Positions 17,316 to 31,916 of a DNA stretch of 64,000 nucleotides are shown piece by piece (position 1 is the stretch's first letter; each line of letters opens with the position of its first letter). Below the pieces are notes generated by a model, which searched no databases, was not told the origin of the DNA, and saw nothing but the letters and a program-made list of their open reading frames with translations. The position numbers were made by a program, and so were the translations under genes. The stretch is from positions 1 to 64,000 of the forward strand of contig JASJCY010000001.1 of NCBI GenBank assembly GCA_030065825.1. Reading direction: 5' to 3'. This DNA is from Nostocaceae cyanobacterium (GTDB taxonomy: Bacteria; Cyanobacteriota; Cyanobacteriia; Cyanobacteriales; Nostocaceae).

Positions 17316-17526
17316 CAGTAGATCACAAAGTTTTTTAGAAGTCTTGCCACATCGATATTTCAGCAAAATACTCTCGCATCGGGAAAGCACGTTTTAATCA
17401 GTATTTCAGCCAATAGTGCTAGCTGCTATTGAGCGATCGCTATTAAACTTATGCTGAATACTCCAAAAGTGACGATGGCTGAAACCCTTATTTTTACGTT
17501 CATTTCCGAAAGTTTGTGATCTACTG
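17316..17526. mobile_element. 211-bp MITE, CAGTAG family, with 5-bp target duplication
   Basis: Ends are CAGTAGATCACAAAGTTTT (from 17316) and, inverted, CAGTAGATCACAAACTTTC (to 17526). It is flanked by direct repeats ACATT at 17311-17315 and 17527-17531. The interior ATGGCTGAAACCCTTATTTT (about 17475) recurs at 24580 in the left end of the large element. No gene lies in 17220-17945; the rest of the gap (17532-17945) holds only low-complexity and palindromic fragments. Confidence 0.85.
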
Positions 17527-24273: not shown

Positions 24274-24517
24274 TTAGACGCTACATCCTAACGCCTGTAA
24301 ATTTATAGCCGCGTTCAAATCCCTATCTAAACTAAAACCACAGTTTTCACAATTAAAAGTCCGCTCAGATCAGCTCAGAGTTTGTTTTTTATAACCGCAA
24401 TTGCTACAGGTTTTAGAACTTGGATAGAACCTATGAGCTACTATTAATTCACTTCCAAACTTCTTGCACTTATATTCAAGTTGTCCCCTAAACTCGTAAA
24501 ATCCACAATCAGATATT
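24274..24517 (-). pseudogene. tnpB: tnpB C-terminal fragment (IS200/IS605 type)
   Basis: Reading the minus strand from 24516 gives ISDCGFYEFRGQLEYK, then FYPSSKTCSNCG and, after an in-frame TGA, ERTFNCENCGFSLDRDLNAA. These are the TnpB zinc ribbon (two CxxC pairs) and the third RuvC motif with its Asp. One nonsense codon lies between the Cys pairs. The matching upstream half (ending KNNKLSQSI) is at 29652-29939. The two halves join exactly if the intervening element and one copy of its 5-bp duplication are removed. Confidence 0.88.
24513..24517. repeat. Target-site duplication, left copy (ATATT)
   Basis: ATATT directly precedes CAGTAGACC at 24518; the right copy is at 29652-29656. Joining the flanks through one ATATT restores the tnpB frame (LSQS-ISDCG). 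Confidence 0.8.
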
Positions 24518-24630
24518 CAGTAGACCGAAAAGTTTTGCGATCGCTCTATTATCAATGGTGTTTACTGACTGATTTACAATGGCTGAAACCCCTATTTTTA
24601 CCTTGGTTTTCAAAAGTTTGTGATTTAGTG
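24518..24630. mobile_element. Left MITE-like end of the composite element
   Basis: A 113-bp unit from CAGTAGACCGAAAAG to CAAAAGTTTGTGATTTAGTG. Its inner end is an eroded copy of the terminus (CACTAAATCACAAAC when inverted). It shares ATGGCTGAAACCCC-TATTTTTAC with the MITE at 17316-17526. It encodes the last ~26 residues of the neighbouring fusion gene. Confidence 0.75.
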
Positions 24631-26621
24631 ATTAACTCTTCTACTTCTTTAATATTAAGCGAATCCTCAGTTAGGGGACGATGCTTAATGGTGATACAGT
24701 TATAATCTGCCCCTGAATGTTTTCCTCTTAAAACGTCAATGGTTCTTTTGACTGCCTTATAGCCTACCAGATGTCCAGACTGATCAATAATTAACTGTAA
24801 AGGACTCTTGTCATCAAGTAACCTTTTAGCTTTTTCCATGGACAAGTCCAAAATACCGAAAACCTTCACTTTATTTTCTAATTCTAATTCTGTGACCGCT
24901 TTAATAGCCACTTCCGTCGCTAAATTTGAGCCACCCCAAAGGATTTGTACTTGAGAATTATCTTTATCTTTTAGTAGTTGTTTAACTTTTATAATATCCT
25001 TACGAGAAGCAACCCCAACTGAGTCCTTTATTTTGATGCGAGGGTGTGCATTGATGCTTTTTAAGACCCCTTGAAGATAGGGATAGTAACGTTCATAAAT
25101 AGCCCCATCAACCAAAGCCACTTCAACGATTTTTTCTTTTGAGGGTGAATTAGGCAGTATATGTTTTTTCGCCCATTTTGCTAAGTATTCCCCTGAATCA
25201 TAGCCCATTTGAAATTTATCTGTGTCGTAGCAAGCAATGGCTAAATCTTCTGCCTCTGAAGGTTCAAAACAAAAATCAACGGTGGTAATGGCTACTCCAG
25301 CGTCACTAGCATGCATCAAAGCATCTTTTGATTTAATCGGGTCTTCGGGGGTTAAGATAATCCCATCTATTCCCTTTTTAACCAACTCTTTGATCGCTTT
25401 AGCTTCATCTTCGACACCATAACCATAAGGAATAGCCCAAATTTCCACACGACGGTTAGCAGCACGACGCATTCCTAATTCATAGGCTTCAAAAATACTT
25501 TGCTGAGGTTCTGGTTTCAGGAGAGCAATGCGTAAACGAGGGGGTCGTGGTTGTCTAATCTGCTGTTCCCAATTGGGCATTAACCTAGACTGTTCCGAAT
25601 TTTTAGCCCGTTTTAGTTGAAAAGCTGACCAGAATTTCGTACCCCACAAATCTGCCCCCTTTAACTGCGCTTCTCGTAGATTAGCCCCTGTAAACTGCTC
25701 CCCTTGTGAGTTGGTGTTACTACTCAAATCAGCAAAACGCAACTTTGCCTTCTCTAGATTAGCCTTATAAAAATCAGCCCCCATTAATTGAGCACGGTTA
25801 AAATTGGCTGATTGTAAATTAGCGCCATAGAAATTGGCATGGTTAAAGTTAGCCCATAATGCTCTAATTCCCTTTAAATTGGCTTTAGAGAAGTCAGCAT
25901 ATTGAAAATTTGCTCCATACAAATTACTATTCTTTAATTCACCCTTTTCAACGATGGCTCCTTCAAGGAAGGCTCCTTTAAGGATGGCTCCTTTAAAGTT
26001 AGCTCGTGATAGATTCGCCCCTTGTAACTTAGCATCGGTTAGATCAGCCCCTTCTAGATTAGCTCCTGCTAAGTTGGCATTTCGTAAATCACTTCCCCGT
26101 AAGTTAATCCCTTGAAGATCAGCGCCTGAGAGATTGGCTCCTTTTAAGTTAGAATTGGAAAGATTCATGGCGCGTTTTTTTACTTTTAATAACCCGTTCT
26201 CGAAGGAAAAATCTCTACATACTTCGAGTCTAAGCTCGGACATTTTTCCATCAGGGGCTTTGAATCCAGGGTTTCCTTGGCAATGTTTATTTAAAACCTT
26301 CAGCGCGGCAATACGTCCATCACTATATTCATTGCTAGATTCCTCATGCAGCACGTTTCGGGCTTGTTGTATCTCCTCTCGTCGTCGGTTCGGTATAGTG
26401 ACGATATAGGACACCACTGCCAATAAAATTGCACCCTCACTTAAGATGACTGCTAACTTGAATAAAGAAATTGTCTGAAGCCAATCGACTAAATCAGAAA
26501 GTTTTGTATCAACAATCGCAATTGGCTTCAATATTTTGGACTTTTTTCCGGTTGTCTGTTTACCATTGGCAGGTTGAGAGTGATTAATATTTTCTGATGA
26601 GATTTTTTTTTCTTTATCCAT
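24552..26621 (-). CDS. Pentapeptide-repeat / periplasmic sugar-binding-like fusion protein
   Basis: 689 residues with an unusual domain order. One membrane helix near 53-75 (LFKLAVILSEGAILLAVVSYIV) is followed by a helical linker. About 155-325 hold pentapeptide repeats (NLKGANLSGADLQGINLRGS...) forming a right-handed beta-helix. About 358-610 hold a LacI/ribose-binding-like domain (RIALLKPEPQQSIFEAYELGMRRAA; GIDGIILTPEDPIKSKDALMHASDAGVAITTVD; VQILWGGSNLATEVAIKAV). No DNA-binding or transport domain is present. It may sense a small ligand. The last ~26 residues come from the flanking MITE. It lies 126 bases downstream of the lipoprotein gene, same strand. Function unknown. Confidence 0.8.
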   Translation of the reverse strand: MDKEKKISSENINHSQPANGKQTTGKKSKILKPIAIVDTKLSDLVDWLQTISLFKLAVILSEGAILLAVVSYIVTIPNRRREEIQQARNVLHEESSNEYSDGRIAALKVLNKHCQGNPGFKAPDGKMSELRLEVCRDFSFENGLLKVKKRAMNLSNSNLKGANLSGADLQGINLRGSDLRNANLAGANLEGADLTDAKLQGANLSRANFKGAILKGAFLEGAIVEKGELKNSNLYGANFQYADFSKANLKGIRALWANFNHANFYGANLQSANFNRAQLMGADFYKANLEKAKLRFADLSSNTNSQGEQFTGANLREAQLKGADLWGTKFWSAFQLKRAKNSEQSRLMPNWEQQIRQPRPPRLRIALLKPEPQQSIFEAYELGMRRAANRRVEIWAIPYGYGVEDEAKAIKELVKKGIDGIILTPEDPIKSKDALMHASDAGVAITTVDFCFEPSEAEDLAIACYDTDKFQMGYDSGEYLAKWAKKHILPNSPSKEKIVEVALVDGAIYERYYPYLQGVLKSINAHPRIKIKDSVGVASRKDIIKVKQLLKDKDNSQVQILWGGSNLATEVAIKAVTELELENKVKVFGILDLSMEKAKRLLDDKSPLQLIIDQSGHLVGYKAVKRTIDVLRGKHSGADYNCITIKHRPLTEDSLNIKEVEELITKSQTFENQGKNRGFSHCKSVSKHH

Positions 26622-26747
26622 GACTGATTAATAATTCTCTAAAATTAATTATCAAAAAATATCTTTTAATTATTCCCCATCTCACATCTTCCACTTTCGA
26701 GTGGGAGAGTAAGTAGAGACCATGGCGCACCTAGGAAATTATAAGGG

Positions 26748-28148
26748 TTACAGGCGATTATTTACCCAATTATCATGTGGTGCAAGATATGAGCCATCTA
26801 ATTGTCTAAATCCTTCAGGAGTCAGTTCAGTTATTAAAACCAGATCCGAGGCTTGAGTTCGCCCTTTAGTTAAATCAATCCTAACGCCACCGAGATCAAA
26901 TTTAGACACAGCAATCTGCTTTAAGAAATTCTCACGATTAATTTTACCTGGTATTTCTTGGAGAATTTTTAGGGTCATTTTGCCAACAATATAGCCTTCT
27001 AAGAAAACATTATTAAATTGATCACTCTTGACCTTCGATTCCGCTTCTTTGACACGATAACTCTTGAGCTTCGATTTCGCTTCTTTGACAATAGGCAGAT
27101 CGGACTTCGACTTCAATAGTGGTACTACTTGGGTCATGATCACTTTGTCTTTGATACCATATTCTTCTAAGTCTAATTTTAATTCTTGAGCATCAGCAAA
27201 GGATAGGGATGAAATAAGCCAATTGTTTCCTTCATCTTGAGCTAATTTGATAAATCGTGCAATATTGCTAAAAGTCCCCGCTGTTACCACTAATTTACAG
27301 TTTATTCCTCTTGTTTTTTCCCATTGTTTCAAGGAGTCATAGCCTGGTTTCACATAGGGGGTATTACGCTTATATAATCCCACTGGTGCAAGTATTGTTT
27401 TGCCCTTCTTTTCCTTCTTTTTATGGTCTAAAAACTGGTCATAGAAGCCCACAATCTCCTCGTCTGCCCCTACTTTTTTTAAACTCTCCCTTAAACCTTC
27501 TAATCCTGACATACCATAGCTATCATCTTGAACATAAGCACAGATTTCACTGGGTTTTATACCTTTCTTTAAAGCCATCTTGACCACCATTTCTATTTCT
27601 TGTGTGTAACTGGCTCGGTAATTGATAATTAGCTCAGAAGACTTAGAAGAGTCTCGCAACAGTTGCGCTCCCGTTAAGAAACCCACCGCTGGAACCTGTT
27701 TTTTCTTCAAGATAGGTAATGTCACTTTGGCTGTTGGTGTACCAACATTACCAATCATCAATAAAATCCCCGAATCAATTAATTTTTTTGTCTTTTGACT
27801 GGCAACTGGTGGTTCATAATAGTCGTTTTCAAAAATTATCTCAATTTTTTTTCCCTTGACCAATTGACCATTTAAAGCGACTTTCAACCCTAATTTTAGG
27901 TTATTTCCTAGAGCTTCTTCCTGTCCTCTCAACGCCAGTATAGACCCCAGTCGGATGGTTCGTTGGGTAACGCCTTCTTCCATGACCTCCGAGGTTCCTG
28001 TTGTGCAGCCATTCACCAATATCCAGCCAAAGCTGAGAACAAAACATCTCATCAAAGACAACTTAAGAGAATTACGAATTAGACTTTTGATTTGTCTGGC
28101 TCTGAGGCTCCCTTCTTGACTGGTTTTTTTTTCTTTTTCTCTCGACAT
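26748..28148 (-). CDS. Substrate-binding lipoprotein (Leu/Ile/Val-binding type I fold)
   Basis: A periplasmic-binding protein of the Peripla_BP_6 type: TIRLGSILALRGQEEALGNNLKLGLKVALNGQL, GILLMIGNVGTPTAKVTLPILKKKQVPAVGF, EICAYVQDDSYGMSGLEGLRESL and a C-terminal IDLTKGRTQASDLVLITEL. A lipobox VNGC follows a short hydrophobic stretch (MRCFVLSFGWIL). ATG 28148 gives 466 residues; ATG 28052 starts right at the signal-peptide-like segment, and the sequence upstream of it is an IS remnant, so 28052 may be the older or true start. No permease or ATPase genes are nearby, which argues for a sensing role with the next gene. Confidence 0.78.
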   Translation of the reverse strand: MSREKEKKTSQEGSLRARQIKSLIRNSLKLSLMRCFVLSFGWILVNGCTTGTSEVMEEGVTQRTIRLGSILALRGQEEALGNNLKLGLKVALNGQLVKGKKIEIIFENDYYEPPVASQKTKKLIDSGILLMIGNVGTPTAKVTLPILKKKQVPAVGFLTGAQLLRDSSKSSELIINYRASYTQEIEMVVKMALKKGIKPSEICAYVQDDSYGMSGLEGLRESLKKVGADEEIVGFYDQFLDHKKKEKKGKTILAPVGLYKRNTPYVKPGYDSLKQWEKTRGINCKLVVTAGTFSNIARFIKLAQDEGNNWLISSLSFADAQELKLDLEEYGIKDKVIMTQVVPLLKSKSDLPIVKEAKSKLKSYRVKEAESKVKSDQFNNVFLEGYIVGKMTLKILQEIPGKINRENFLKQIAVSKFDLGGVRIDLTKGRTQASDLVLITELTPEGFRQLDGSYLAPHDNWVNNRL

Positions 28149-28530
28149 ATTTTTGTATTCCTTTACCTTTAATCTGCTGACATTGAATAGTGGAATAACT
28201 GTAAGCAAAAGCTATTAATAAAACCAGAGAAATCAAGCGTTTATCTTCAACATTGGTGTCTGATAAATTATAACCACTCTTCTTGAAATATCTAAACATT
28301 TATTCTATATCAAACCTTTGTTTATAGGCAAAAATAACAGACTCTAGGCTTTCCAGCTTTCTTAAGATAAACCATCCTTGTTTGGATGCGACTCCGTTGA
28401 TTTTACGTTTCCACTTACAGGCAACATTAAAACTAAAAAAAACACGAGTCTTTGTGACTTTAATTCCTTTGATAAAATAATAAAACCCAGGTACTAATCC
28501 CAGATTATTTAGCTTAATTTCCTTCGGGAG
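28083..28530 (-). pseudogene. IS4-family transposase remnant
   Basis: The minus strand encodes GIKVTKTRVFFSFNVACKWKRK, GWFILRKLESLESVIFAYKQRFDIE, a TAA stop at 28297-28299, then MFRYFKKSGYNL and LISLVLLIAFAYSYSTIQ. The Y(2)R(3)E(6)K signature of IS4-type transposases is complete except that the codon right after the Glu is now a stop (GAA to TAA is the simplest change). The 5' half and the end after KYVERK are missing. Its 3' end overlaps the possible start of the lipoprotein gene. The region 28531-28808 holds GTTCCCT-type short repeats and no gene. Confidence 0.8.
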
Positions 28531-28808
28531 AGGGAAGAGGGAACGGGCAACAAGCTTGGAGTGAAATTTTTGTCCAAAGGTTTGGTTGCCCGTGAGTTTC
28601 CTCTCCCAAGAGCGCGGGTCTGAGTCCCCCACCTGTTGCCGGCAAGCGTTGATGGAGATTTAAATCCCCCATCACAGGCAGTCCTGTTCCCTATTAAGAA
28701 TTCCCTGTTCCCTTTTAATTAAAATATCTTTTTCTAGCATGAAATTTCACACCCCATATATATAAAGCTTTTCAAGCTATTTCGTCACCCCCTCAGTGAA
28801 ATAATAAA

Positions 28809-28961
28809 TCAACATTTACTTTTAGAACCATCAGGCATAGTAGCACCCCAAAAGTTTGTAAATTTTGACTTAATACCGCTCAAAATAGTCTCTGACAAAT
28901 TAGCATTGGTAAAATTGCTAAAGCTTAAATTAGCATTACTCAGATTAGCATTACCTAAATT
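28809..28961 (-). pseudogene. Pentapeptide-repeat gene, C-terminal fragment
   Basis: The minus strand reads NLGNANLSNANLSFSNFTNANLSETILSG, then FTNFWGATMPDGSKSKC and a stop, the usual end of cyanobacterial pentapeptide proteins. The 5' side is cut exactly at the IS terminus CAGTAGACCC (28962). It is not the missing end of the fusion gene, whose repeats differ. Confidence 0.82.
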
Positions 28962-29651
28962 CAGTAGACCCAAAAGTTATGCATTCGCCAAGAAAATAGT
29001 AGTTTCTGATATATTTTTCCAAAAATTATCAAAAGCTGTTTATTATCAATTAATGATAAGCTGAACTTATGATAACAGGTCTACTACTTGACGTAAAAAC
29101 TCAAGCATTTGTTTGAGGGTAAATAGATAGGAAAAGACTTGTCGAGAACTTCTTTTTAAACGACTAAGATAATGCCATATTAAATAAATCCAAATATTAA
29201 TTATTAAAAATGCTCAAGCTAAAAAGATAAATCGAATTATGAGATTTTTAATAGTTGTTTTAATGAGGGATTAATTTTTCATCCGATAGCTACTTTCAAT
29301 CCCGAATCTCAGACGATAATCATCATGTATTAGGTGCAATGACAATTTAACTTTATGGACTCCATAAACAAAAAACTCTTGCCCATGACCTCGTCTTTTA
29401 CCTTTCTTATACTTACAAATTATCCAAACATGAAAACTAACTTAACCATATTTATCACTGTTTAAAGAGTAAGTCCTGTTTGTAACTACCTCTACCTCGA
29501 ATTAATTGTCTAGTCCCTCCAGATTTACCTCGAATAATAACTGGCATTTCAAAGGGAATATTCAAAGCTAACAACCATTGCTTCTTACTGGTAAATATTA
29601 GTTTTTTAAGTCACTACGAACACAGCGATCGCAGAACTTTTCGCTCTACTC
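28962..29651 (-). mobile_element. Degenerate IS forming the right end of the composite element
   Basis: The left terminus CAGTAGACCCAAAAGTT (28962) and the right terminus at 29651 (inverted GAGTAGAGCGAAAAGTTCTG) bound a 690-bp unit. A transposase remnant covers 29068-29610. The N-terminal half of the transposase is deleted. Confidence 0.72.
29068..29610 (-). pseudogene. DDE transposase remnant (IS4-like)
   Basis: Minus-strand pieces: MPVIIRGKSGGTRQLIRGRGSYKQD, then after a frameshift near 29463 VWIICKYKKGKRRGHGQEFFVYGVHKVKLSLHLIHDDYRLRFGIESSYRMKN, an in-frame stop, and finally LKQMLEFLRQVVDLLS with a stop at 29068. YRLRFGIESSYRMK resembles the YREK region of IS4-type enzymes. At least one frameshift and about three internal stops make it inactive. 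I am not sure of the exact IS family. Confidence 0.75.
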
Positions 29652-29939
29652 ATATTGACTGAGACAACTTGTTATTTTTAACCATCCCAGAAATATTTAA
29701 ATCTTCTACTACTATCTTTGCGTGGTTTTTGCATAAGTAAGTAGTGATTTTATCAAGAGTGTCTTTTCTGAGGTTGGCAACACGAGCCTGTAGTTTGGTA
29801 AGTTTAATTTTTGCTTTATACCTGTTATTACTTCCTTTTTCTTTACGAGCTAACTGTTTAGATAAACGTTGTAATTTAGCTAGTTGTTTTTTGTAGTGTT
29901 TAGGATGATGATAATTCTTTAGGGAGAATGTTAGGAAAC
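29652..29939 (-). pseudogene. tnpB: tnpB middle fragment (IS200/IS605 type)
   Basis: An uninterrupted minus-strand frame of about 95 codons: HHPKHYKKQLAKLQRLSKQLARKEKGSNNRYKAKIKLTKLQARVANLRKDTLDKITTYL, then KIVVEDLNISGMVKNNKLSQSI. The second RuvC motif (VEDLN, with its Glu) is intact. It stops at the ATATT duplication; the rest is at 24274-24517. The 5' part of tnpB is missing and the frame runs into the 216-bp repeats. Confidence 0.88.
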
Positions 29940-30578
29940 GATAATATATTTATGTCATCAAATCTTGATAAAAAAATGGGCAGGGGTATCCACCCAATAC
30001 CCATATTATAGCAGAAATTTGGTATCTGTAAACCCTGAAATCTCGTCGCGCGCCAAATGATAATGGTTATCAAACTCAGTAAATTCGATATGAAAAGACC
30101 ATTTTGAAAATTGCAATTAAATTTTACAGTTAAGCCGTCAGAGGTGTCAGGAAACGATTATATACTTATGTCATTAAATCTTGATAAAAAAATGGGCAGG
30201 AGTACCCACCTAATACCCATATTATAGCAGAAATTCGGTATCTGTAAACCCTGAAATCTCGTCGCGCACCAAATGATAATGGTTATCAAACTCGCTAAAT
30301 TTGATATGAAAAGACGATTTTGAAAATTGTAATTAAATTTTACAGTTAAGCTGTCAGAGGTGTCAGGAAACGATAATATATTTATGTCATCAAATCTTGA
30401 TAAAAAAATGGGCAGGAGTACCCACCTAATACCCATATTATAGCAGAAATTTGGTATCTGTAAACCCTGAAATCTCGTCGCGCGCCAAATGATAATGGTT
30501 ATCAAACTCGCTAAAAATGGCATAAAAAGACGATTTTGAAAATTTTAATAAAATTTTACAATTCAGCCCCGACTTCAC
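29931..30578. repeat. Three 216-bp tandem repeats
   Basis: Copies begin at 29931, 30147 and 30363 (T(T/C)AGGAAACG), a period of exactly 216 bp. They share GTCAT-AAATCTTGATAAAAAA, ATGGGCAGG-GTA-CCACC, AATACCCATATTATAGCAG and CGTCGCGC-CCAAATGATAATGG. Differences are scattered single bases, and copy 3 diverges in its last ~40 bp. Although 216 is divisible by three, neither strand gives a convincing protein. The terminal part (30560-30600) has a CCCGACTTC...GTCGGGG stem. Confidence 0.93.
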
Positions 30579-30599
30579 AGAAGTTGTCGGGGTTGTAAC

Positions 30600-31904
30600 T
30601 CAACTTAAATGCATAAATATAATCTTCAGTAAATCTGCCCTAGTGAATGGTTTACTTAAATACCCCGATACCCCCATAAACCTGGCTTTAACTTGCTCTA
30701 CAATTCCTTTAGTACCAGTAACCATAATAATGGGAGTATGTTTAAACTTAGAATTACTGCGAATCATCCGACATAATTCATAACCGTCAATTCCTGCCAT
30801 GTTCAAATCTACTAATATCAAATCTGGTTGATGACGAATAATGGAAATTGGTGCATGTAATGGTTCGCTAATAGTAATTACAGAAAAAACTTCATCGTCC
30901 AAGAAACGACTAATTTCTCTTAATAATGTAAGACTTTCATCTACAGCCACAATTTTATAATGTTTGCGTCCAGTGGTGGCAGGATTTACATTTTCAGATT
31001 CAGCTTTGGTGTTATACTTTCTCCCATTACCAATTACCCCTTGATTACTACCAACTATAAAGGGATTTTCTGATTGCATAATTAAAGAATTGCTTTCCCC
31101 GTTACTCATTGGTAATTTATCAAAGGGTGGATCTGGTGCATGGAGTACAATTCCCCCATTGATAATGTAAGGGTATATGTTTTTTGCTAACTGGAGTTCA
31201 TCTTGATTTAAAATTACTGCTAAATGGCGTAAACTTAACCCTTTTAACCAGTGAGTCAAATTTTTTTCTGTATCTAACAAGATTTTTTGGGGATTATTTG
31301 TATTCTGAATCCAAAGATATGGACGTTGATAAGGTGAAGAAATTACTGGTGCCATTGACTGCCAAGCTTGTAATCTTTGCTGACAAAAATTGAGAATTTT
31401 TTCTACATCTAAATTACAAATTCTCGTAATATTATCCAGACTATTTGTTAATTCATAACTGCCTTGTTTAATAGCTAAAAATGACTCAATTACCTCTTTA
31501 ACTAATTCTTGAATTAACAACGCTGCTTGTTGATGATTAAGATATTGTTGGTTAATTAACCAACATATAGCCTCATACTCAGGATGCTTGGTAGATTGAG
31601 GTGATGATTGGGCTTCAAACATCACCCGCATTTGCAAGCGAATATCATCAGTTAAGGTGGGAATTTGATGAGATAAGCGACGTAAGTGCCTCTCTAACCT
31701 ATCGAAGGGTGCGACGGAATGACTGGCATAAATTATTTTACCTGAATCTAAATAAATAGACCAAGAAACTGAATTACTCAATGCTTGTAAGCAAGTAGTT
31801 TCATAACAACTCCATAAGTGCCTGAGTACACTCCGGGAAGCTATTTTGGTAAATGTGCCATAATTATTAGTGACTTGGGGAATTGCTGTGGAGATTGGAA
31901 CCAT
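30600..31904 (-). CDS. PatA-like response regulator (PATAN + REC)
   Basis: 434 residues. The N-terminal PATAN/DUF4388-related region (about 20-270) has LSNSVSWSIYLDSGKIIYASHSVAPFDRLERHLRRL, as in PatA and other cyanobacterial PATAN-REC proteins. The C-terminal receiver (about 315-434) has the phosphoacceptor in LILVDLNMAGIDGYELC, the Thr in MVTGT and the Lys in GYLSKPF. The acidic pair at its start reads VDE instead of DD. Such proteins act in phototaxis, motility or heterocyst patterning; which of these applies here is not clear. ATG 31904 is chosen; GTG 31916 is possible. No histidine kinase is nearby. Confidence 0.85.
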   Translation of the reverse strand: MVPISTAIPQVTNNYGTFTKIASRSVLRHLWSCYETTCLQALSNSVSWSIYLDSGKIIYASHSVAPFDRLERHLRRLSHQIPTLTDDIRLQMRVMFEAQSSPQSTKHPEYEAICWLINQQYLNHQQAALLIQELVKEVIESFLAIKQGSYELTNSLDNITRICNLDVEKILNFCQQRLQAWQSMAPVISSPYQRPYLWIQNTNNPQKILLDTEKNLTHWLKGLSLRHLAVILNQDELQLAKNIYPYIINGGIVLHAPDPPFDKLPMSNGESNSLIMQSENPFIVGSNQGVIGNGRKYNTKAESENVNPATTGRKHYKIVAVDESLTLLREISRFLDDEVFSVITISEPLHAPISIIRHQPDLILVDLNMAGIDGYELCRMIRSNSKFKHTPIIMVTGTKGIVEQVKARFMGVSGYLSKPFTRADLLKIIFMHLS

Positions 31905-31916
31905 ATATTGTATCAC

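Follow-up and report, generated by a model that had tools for sequence, protein, structure and literature searches.

We analyzed a 64,000-nucleotide stretch of a Nostocaceae cyanobacterium genome (GenBank assembly GCA_030065825.1, contig JASJCY010000001.1, positions 1 to 64,000; here called the window), in which a tnpB gene is split by a 5,134-bp element that encodes no intact transposase. The element is a non-autonomous composite, in which two different derivatives of one ISH3-like insertion sequence (IS) family, one of them a miniature inverted-repeat transposable element (MITE), surround a cargo of two genes. The cargo is a conserved but uncharacterized cyanobacterial operon that encodes a binding-protein lipoprotein and a membrane-anchored protein in which a pentapeptide beta-helix is fused to a sugar-type binding domain. 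We assign a probability of roughly 0.7 to the whole explanation developed below, that the composite was mobilized in trans, that its cargo encodes a periplasmic ligand-sensing pair, and that this pair was transferred laterally and then changed under diversifying selection. The element and the gene that it interrupts are arranged as follows.

24274-24517, minus strand: 3' part of the interrupted tnpB with an in-frame TGA (translation of the joined flanks)
24513-24517, no strand: left target-site duplication (TSD) ATATT, exact 5-bp repeat
24518-29651, no strand: transposase-less composite element, 5,134 bp (terminal inverted repeats, TSD, tnpB frame regained on removal)
29652-29656, no strand: right TSD ATATT, exact 5-bp repeat
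29657-29925, minus strand: upstream portion of the split tnpB, which lacks its 5' end (translation of the joined flanks)

An earlier note on this DNA had placed the break in tnpB at 24516 and 29652 and proposed that removal of 24518-29651 together with one ATATT restores the frame, and joining the flanks with a single ATATT reproduced this. The joined flanks form one continuous TnpB frame that passes the junction as ...NNKLSQS-ISDCGFYEF... and reads ...NISGMVKNNKLSQSISDCGFYEFRGQLEYKCKKFGSELIVAHRFYPSSKTCSNCGYKKQTLS*SERTF..., a typical TnpB zinc-ribbon region; the sole break is a TGA about 48 codons on. Because the probability that two 5-mers drawn at random from the window agree is only 0.0014, the ATATT duplication and the frame test taken together lie well beyond chance. 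The host gene is defective regardless of the insert, given the in-frame TGA and the missing 5' end. A hunt for empty tnpB sites, which the note had suggested, gave only a paralogue: an uninterrupted tnpB on contig C304 spans the insertion point with 77% identity over query positions 127-626, and no orthologous empty site was available. Tandem repeat units of about 216 bp at 29930-30600 abut the truncated 5' end of tnpB, and related copies are scattered genome-wide.

The outer ends of the element are inverted repeats of each other (27 of 32 positions identical in strict register; 88% over 32 nucleotides by repeat search). These ends are shared with a MITE elsewhere in the window, as had been noted before, and also with many further copies in the genome. 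In the window the end pattern occurs 5 times against 0.31 expected, and in the genome ends of the CAGTA(A/G)A type gave 44 matches with at most 1 mismatch, compared to 14 for the reversed control pattern.

17316-17526, no strand: second MITE-family copy of the window, TSD ACATT (shared ends and TSD)

Exact 5-bp duplications flank all ten of the family elements inspected, the 5.1-kb element included, so that nine further elements agree with the duplication and ends seen here. MITE copies L002-L006 carry ATATT, GAACT, ATAAG, AAATT, and AATGT; copies on C186 and C40 carry AATCT and AGACT; and a 1,491-bp ISH3-like IS on C12 carries ATTAT. Transposase fragments of this C12 copy, whose gene is broken, match the ISH3 model NF033541 (E = 2.6e-19 and 1.9e-15), as does one fragment of the IS remnant in the window (E = 2.4e-6); all of these matches are partial and fall below the 225-bit full-protein cut-off because the genes are broken. 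The ends of the element probably belong to an ISH3-like family of ISs and MITEs.

Within its outer ends, the composite is built of two dissimilar bounding units, and DNA homology of the cargo to Richelia sp. UBA3308 (three blocks, 79 to 84% identity) gives a view of the donor context.

24518-24630, no strand: left bounding unit, a 113-bp deletion derivative of the MITE family (84 to 85% identity to L002-L006)
28518-28716, no strand: small interspersed repeat inserted ahead of the operon and missing in Richelia (alignment gap; more than 20 matches in the genome)
28809-28961, minus strand: 3' remainder of a small pentapeptide gene that the right IS has truncated (homologous to Richelia L206:7911-8152 at the DNA level)
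28962-29651, minus strand: right bounding unit, a 690-bp internally deleted ISH3-like IS (two ends of its own, transposase remnants, similarity to the 1,491-bp C12 copy)

The inner end of the left unit has decayed, with TTTAGTG in place of TCTACTG. On the right, homology to Richelia starts exactly at 28961, the base adjoining the inner end of the IS, and the small pentapeptide gene upstream of the pair, intact in Richelia, is represented in the window only by its 3' part. With the pentapeptide gene on its inner side and tnpB on its outer side, the right IS shows the arrangement that transposition of the whole block by its outer ends predicts, which is direct evidence for movement as a unit. 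We propose that a MITE on one side and an internally deleted IS of the same ISH3-like kind on the other came to enclose the two-gene operon, and that the two outer ends served in trans as substrate for an ISH3-type transposase, which would have moved the 5,134-bp block into tnpB with a 5-bp duplication. Similarity to Richelia runs about 70 nucleotides into the left MITE, so Richelia may also hold a decayed MITE, and the left bounding unit may predate the split between the two sequences. A search of the window's own genome with the Richelia sequence for the 5' half of the pentapeptide gene returned weak pentapeptide matches only, and a donor scar was not found there either, including by search with the upstream noncoding DNA.

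The earlier description of the cargo as a binding-protein lipoprotein and a pentapeptide/sugar-binding fusion with no intact transposase agrees with Pfam searches and inspection of the open reading frames (ORFs), and the description of a well-bounded mobile unit whose cargo lacks transport machinery is supported. The lipoprotein gene lies upstream and the fusion gene downstream.

26748-28148, minus strand: lipoprotein gene, Peripla_BP_6 / type-I periplasmic binding protein (Pfam, alignments, AlphaFold2, Foldseek)
24552-26621, minus strand: fusion gene, 689 aa, comprising a membrane helix, a pentapeptide beta-helix, and Peripla_BP_4 (Pfam, alignment, AlphaFold2, Foldseek)

The lipoprotein ORF opens at a TTG at 28208, and comparison with Richelia indicates the ATG at 28148 as the likely start. 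Its AlphaFold2 model (pLDDT of 76) has as best PDB match 4kv7, a Leu/Ile/Val-type binding protein. A near-perfect 35-nucleotide direct duplication in the gene (window 27020-27090) adds residues absent from relatives. For the fusion protein (mean pLDDT of 81), Foldseek matched the parts to glucose/galactose/ribose-type binding proteins and to pentapeptide solenoids including HetL, and its last 25 or so residues are encoded by the left MITE. The cysteine pairs C114/C135 and C451/C464 are invariant in 21 aligned fusion sequences, which suits an extracytoplasmic (periplasmic) location. Two small ORFs, 28072-28299 and 28300-28632, were considered as genes and rejected: they belong to no family, and the Richelia copy of the second region contains an indel. 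An open-literature search turned up no description of a pentapeptide/periplasmic-binding fusion in cyanobacteria, which is weak evidence, as most subscription journals fall outside it.

Both genes are adjacent in about 18 other cyanobacterial genomes, and the same gene order is present in Okeania, Trichodesmium, Hydrocoleum, Geitlerinema, Baaleninema, Oscillatoria, Symploca, Xenococcus, Pleurocapsa, and Acaryochloris. None of these operon loci has ends of the ISH3-like family at 0 to 1 mismatches. The earlier note had proposed a search for the same pair between the same ends in other genomes and had named a conserved locus without such ends as a finding that would speak against it; for the cargo, the latter is what we observed. 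Its other refuting condition, ends and a duplication that are not conserved in other copies, did not hold for the MITE/IS family. The description of an orphan sensor-like pair as cargo of the element is only half right: since the pair occurs together in some 18 genomes without these ends, it is a captured conserved operon and not an element-specific gene set. A search of 59 genomes from the window's own family gave no close lipoprotein and a single distant match (E = 2e-7), and none was found for that family in a larger sample. Searches for the pair on plasmids returned only distant ABC binding proteins, all below 60% identity, and searches for the fusion on viral contigs matched the pentapeptide part alone.

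In Okeania, the pair is located near a Mur-ligase/FolC-type gene, a DUF4388/receiver gene, and the type IV pilus genes pilM and pilN. A DUF4388/receiver gene also lies near the element (window 30600-31916); as strand and order differ, we regard this as coincidence. Three Trichodesmium metagenome-assembled genomes (L077, L081, and L082) have two lipoprotein genes beside a single fusion gene; in L082 one of the two is partly degraded. Distant fusions that occur alone, in G091, G033, and G024 (36 to 39% identity), adjoin unrelated genes and were useful for alignment only.

Homologues of the lipoprotein outside cyanobacteria (38 to 48% identity), found mainly in Gammaproteobacteria, are associated with chemosensory genes. 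A methyl-accepting chemotaxis protein (MCP) is encoded directly downstream in 41 of the 48 non-cyanobacterial loci with an intact ORF, CheA is present in 37 of the 48, and CheY and CheW are often encoded upstream. In Gammaproteobacteria the homologue appears to serve a chemoreceptor system as its dedicated binding lipoprotein. Within the Gammaproteobacterial loci L149-L200, L158:6226-14562 gives one such series of CheY, CheW, lipoprotein, MCP, and a CheA hybrid. The cargo lipoprotein shares its origin with ligand-binding lipoproteins found alongside the chemoreceptors of Che/Chp-type systems, chiefly gammaproteobacterial ones. In cyanobacteria a single-span membrane protein, which combines a pentapeptide beta-helix with a second binding domain of the sugar type, stands in for the chemoreceptor. 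Periplasmic ligand sensing is the most likely role of the pair, in which the two proteins would associate in a sensing or relay complex with the membrane anchor as its reporting route.

In Richelia sp. UBA3308 the pair occupies a second mobile context, an element of about 19 kb that divides coxA and whose first gene encodes a serine recombinase with Resolvase and Recombinase domains. Interruption of coxA by such elements is familiar from heterocyst-forming cyanobacteria (PMC4874684). Further along, the Richelia coxA has a second break, at which two weakly integrase-like genes are located. Overall, this locus (L205/L206; G417:C321:5280-29518) contains coxA in at least three pieces, with the 19-kb element in the first gap and the weakly integrase-like genes in and after the second, as candidate developmental excision elements. 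The 19-kb element also encodes a triple-TIR/WD40 protein and a patatin-like phospholipase. Triple-TIR/WD40 proteins with TIRs that are 58 to 69% identical are encoded close downstream of the pair both in Richelia and in Xenococcaceae MO_188.B29.

L130:12054-16232, strand not stated: triple-TIR/WD40 locus (domain make-up)
L147:13576-17140 (the same as L091:13569-17101), strand not stated: triple-TIR/WD40 locus (domain make-up)

The history of the pair is lateral, and change in its proteins has been accelerated with the reading frames kept. Between the window and Richelia, pheT differs by a nonsynonymous divergence (dN) of 0.15 and a synonymous divergence (dS) of 2.09, the latter near saturation, while dS for the pair is 0.14 to 0.17 and the surrounding noncoding DNA is 87 to 90% identical. 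With a dS so far below that of pheT, the pair is far younger than the core genes, which indicates lateral transfer. Counting estimates of omega (dN/dS) for this comparison were 1.25 and 1.27 (intervals of 0.89 to 1.79 and 0.99 to 1.72). A codon model, fitted with gap flanks removed, gave 1.41 for the lipoprotein (p = 0.15), 1.48 for the fusion (p = 0.03), and 1.45 for both (p = 0.01), all estimated from one genome pair; when the fusion was divided into parts, a split picked after the data had been seen, omega was 3.3 for Peripla_BP_4 (p = 0.0002), while the remainder of the fusion gave 1.0. In other comparisons within the family, most omega values lie at 0.1 to 0.5 (0.3 to 0.4 in Okeania/Trichodesmium), and genes neighboring the pair in Okeania range from 0.06 to 0.30. 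We suggest that the pair passed between the Richelia and window lineages and that its proteins then changed under diversifying selection, above all in the sugar-type domain, perhaps in response to a new ligand or antagonist.

Several observations weigh against this account, beyond the single genome pair and post hoc domain split on which omega depends. No intact ISH3 transposase was seen in the family copies inspected, so present-day mobility is doubtful; the whole 5.1-kb unit is single copy in its genome, where a second was not found; and the insert-free comparison for the tnpB site is a paralogue. The fusion has no known signalling domain, and none of 20 cyanobacterial loci has an MCP, CheW, or CheA gene beside the pair, so the signalling output is a conjecture from the relatives outside cyanobacteria.

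Among other explanations, the one that fares best, though we consider it unlikely, is that the pair is a cell-surface recognition module engaged in an arms race or in partner recognition. An omega above 1 that is concentrated in the sugar-type domain would fit such a role, as would carriage of the pair on two unrelated mobile elements and the proximity of a triple-TIR/WD40 gene in two distant genomes and of a patatin gene in one. Neither protein matches PADLOC models (E threshold of 0.001), however, TIR-WD40 neighbors occur at only 2 loci, and omega in Okeania/Trichodesmium is only 0.3 to 0.4. TIR-WD40-type genes are common in large cyanobacterial genomes. A fuller form of this idea, which we regard as doubtful, is that an accessory protein of chemoreceptors gave rise in cyanobacteria to a surface-recognition system that moves laterally and has so far gone undescribed. 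Two binding-protein domains would be displayed, one on a lipoprotein and one on a membrane-anchored pentapeptide rod, an antagonist or partner would drive diversification of the sugar-type domain, and the system would ride unrelated mobile elements such as the ISH3 composite and the Richelia coxA element.

Omega near 1 could also reflect neutrality, with the cargo genes as decaying, functionless passengers. The counting estimates of about 1.25, with intervals that include 1, are in keeping with decay, as are the indels, the 35-nucleotide duplication in the lipoprotein gene, and the replacement of the fusion C terminus by MITE sequence. Against this, the 1,072 aligned codons contain no stop codon, where about 29 would be expected without constraint, and no frameshift; furthermore, changes affect only 5% and 12% of the family-invariant columns compared to 51% and 58% of the most variable. 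We hold neutral decay to be improbable, since it fits neither the missing stops nor the spared invariant columns.

For the element itself, the alternative to movement as one block is a two-step origin in place, in which an ISH3-like element entered tnpB and the operon followed by homologous recombination with an IS copy flanking it. This sequence of events likewise predicts one IS end per border, the ATATT duplications, and a restorable tnpB frame, but it needs an additional recombination with circular or duplicated donor DNA. The bounding units are also strongly unlike inside (a 113-bp MITE and a 690-bp IS derivative), and joint use of the outer ends is simpler; we give the two-step origin little credence. 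That the pair instead feeds substrates to an ABC transporter encoded elsewhere, as the membership of both domains in families of ABC-transporter binding proteins might suggest, has poor odds, as no conserved permease or ATPase gene adjoins the pair in the cyanobacterial loci, and none in the window either, the joining of a binding domain to a beta-helix and a membrane helix does not resemble the build of a transporter subunit, and the lipoprotein homologues outside cyanobacteria sit with chemoreceptors.

Taken as a trans-mobilized composite with a ligand-sensing cargo, the element shows cleanly how a whole cyanobacterial operon can be moved by two miniature IS derivatives, and a second genome lets the donor context be read. 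The cargo, in turn, establishes a protein pair that is conserved but uncharacterized and has chemosensory relatives outside cyanobacteria. The low synonymous and noncoding divergence set against fast change in the binding domain makes re-tuning or diversification of a sensor pair at a change of host testable.

As a mobile unit, the element is of a known kind, the mobile insertion cassette or TIME-COMP type, and has outer IS-related inverted repeats, a TSD of family length, and passengers without a functional transposase. Mobile insertion cassettes such as MIC231 of Bacillus cereus and mic-qnrD (PMC3913671) similarly place IS-type inverted repeats around passengers, lack a transposase gene, generate a TSD, and are expected to transpose in trans; the window element differs in its ISH3-type ends and in having two distinct IS-derived bounding units in place of bare ends, and its mobility is read from sequence. 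TIME-COMP elements, pairs of Tn3-derived miniature elements (PMC4133298), also mobilize the DNA between them and produce AT-rich duplications of 5 to 6 bp. Their ends are of the Tn3 family, whereas those here are ISH3-like and one side is a 690-bp IS derivative. Heterocyst-type interruption elements, in coxA and other genes (PMC4874684), resemble the Richelia context, in which the pair rides one in coxA with a serine recombinase, but the window element lacks a recombinase and relies on transposon ends and a TSD.

The cargo has counterparts of its own. The Che/Chp operons of Thiothrix, Hahella, Sedimenticola, and others share the 38 to 48% identical lipoprotein and the order of lipoprotein followed by membrane protein; there, however, the membrane partner is an MCP with CheW/CheA, while the cyanobacterial partner is the pentapeptide/Peripla_BP_4 fusion. 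Binding-protein-coupled sensors (TorT/TorS, XylFII/LytS, and LuxP/LuxQ) also employ type-I periplasmic binding proteins for sensing, and the TorT and XylFII complexes are among the Foldseek matches of the fusion's binding domain; a TorT model also matched weakly. The pair differs from these sensors in having no histidine kinase in or beside it and in carrying two binding domains on two proteins.

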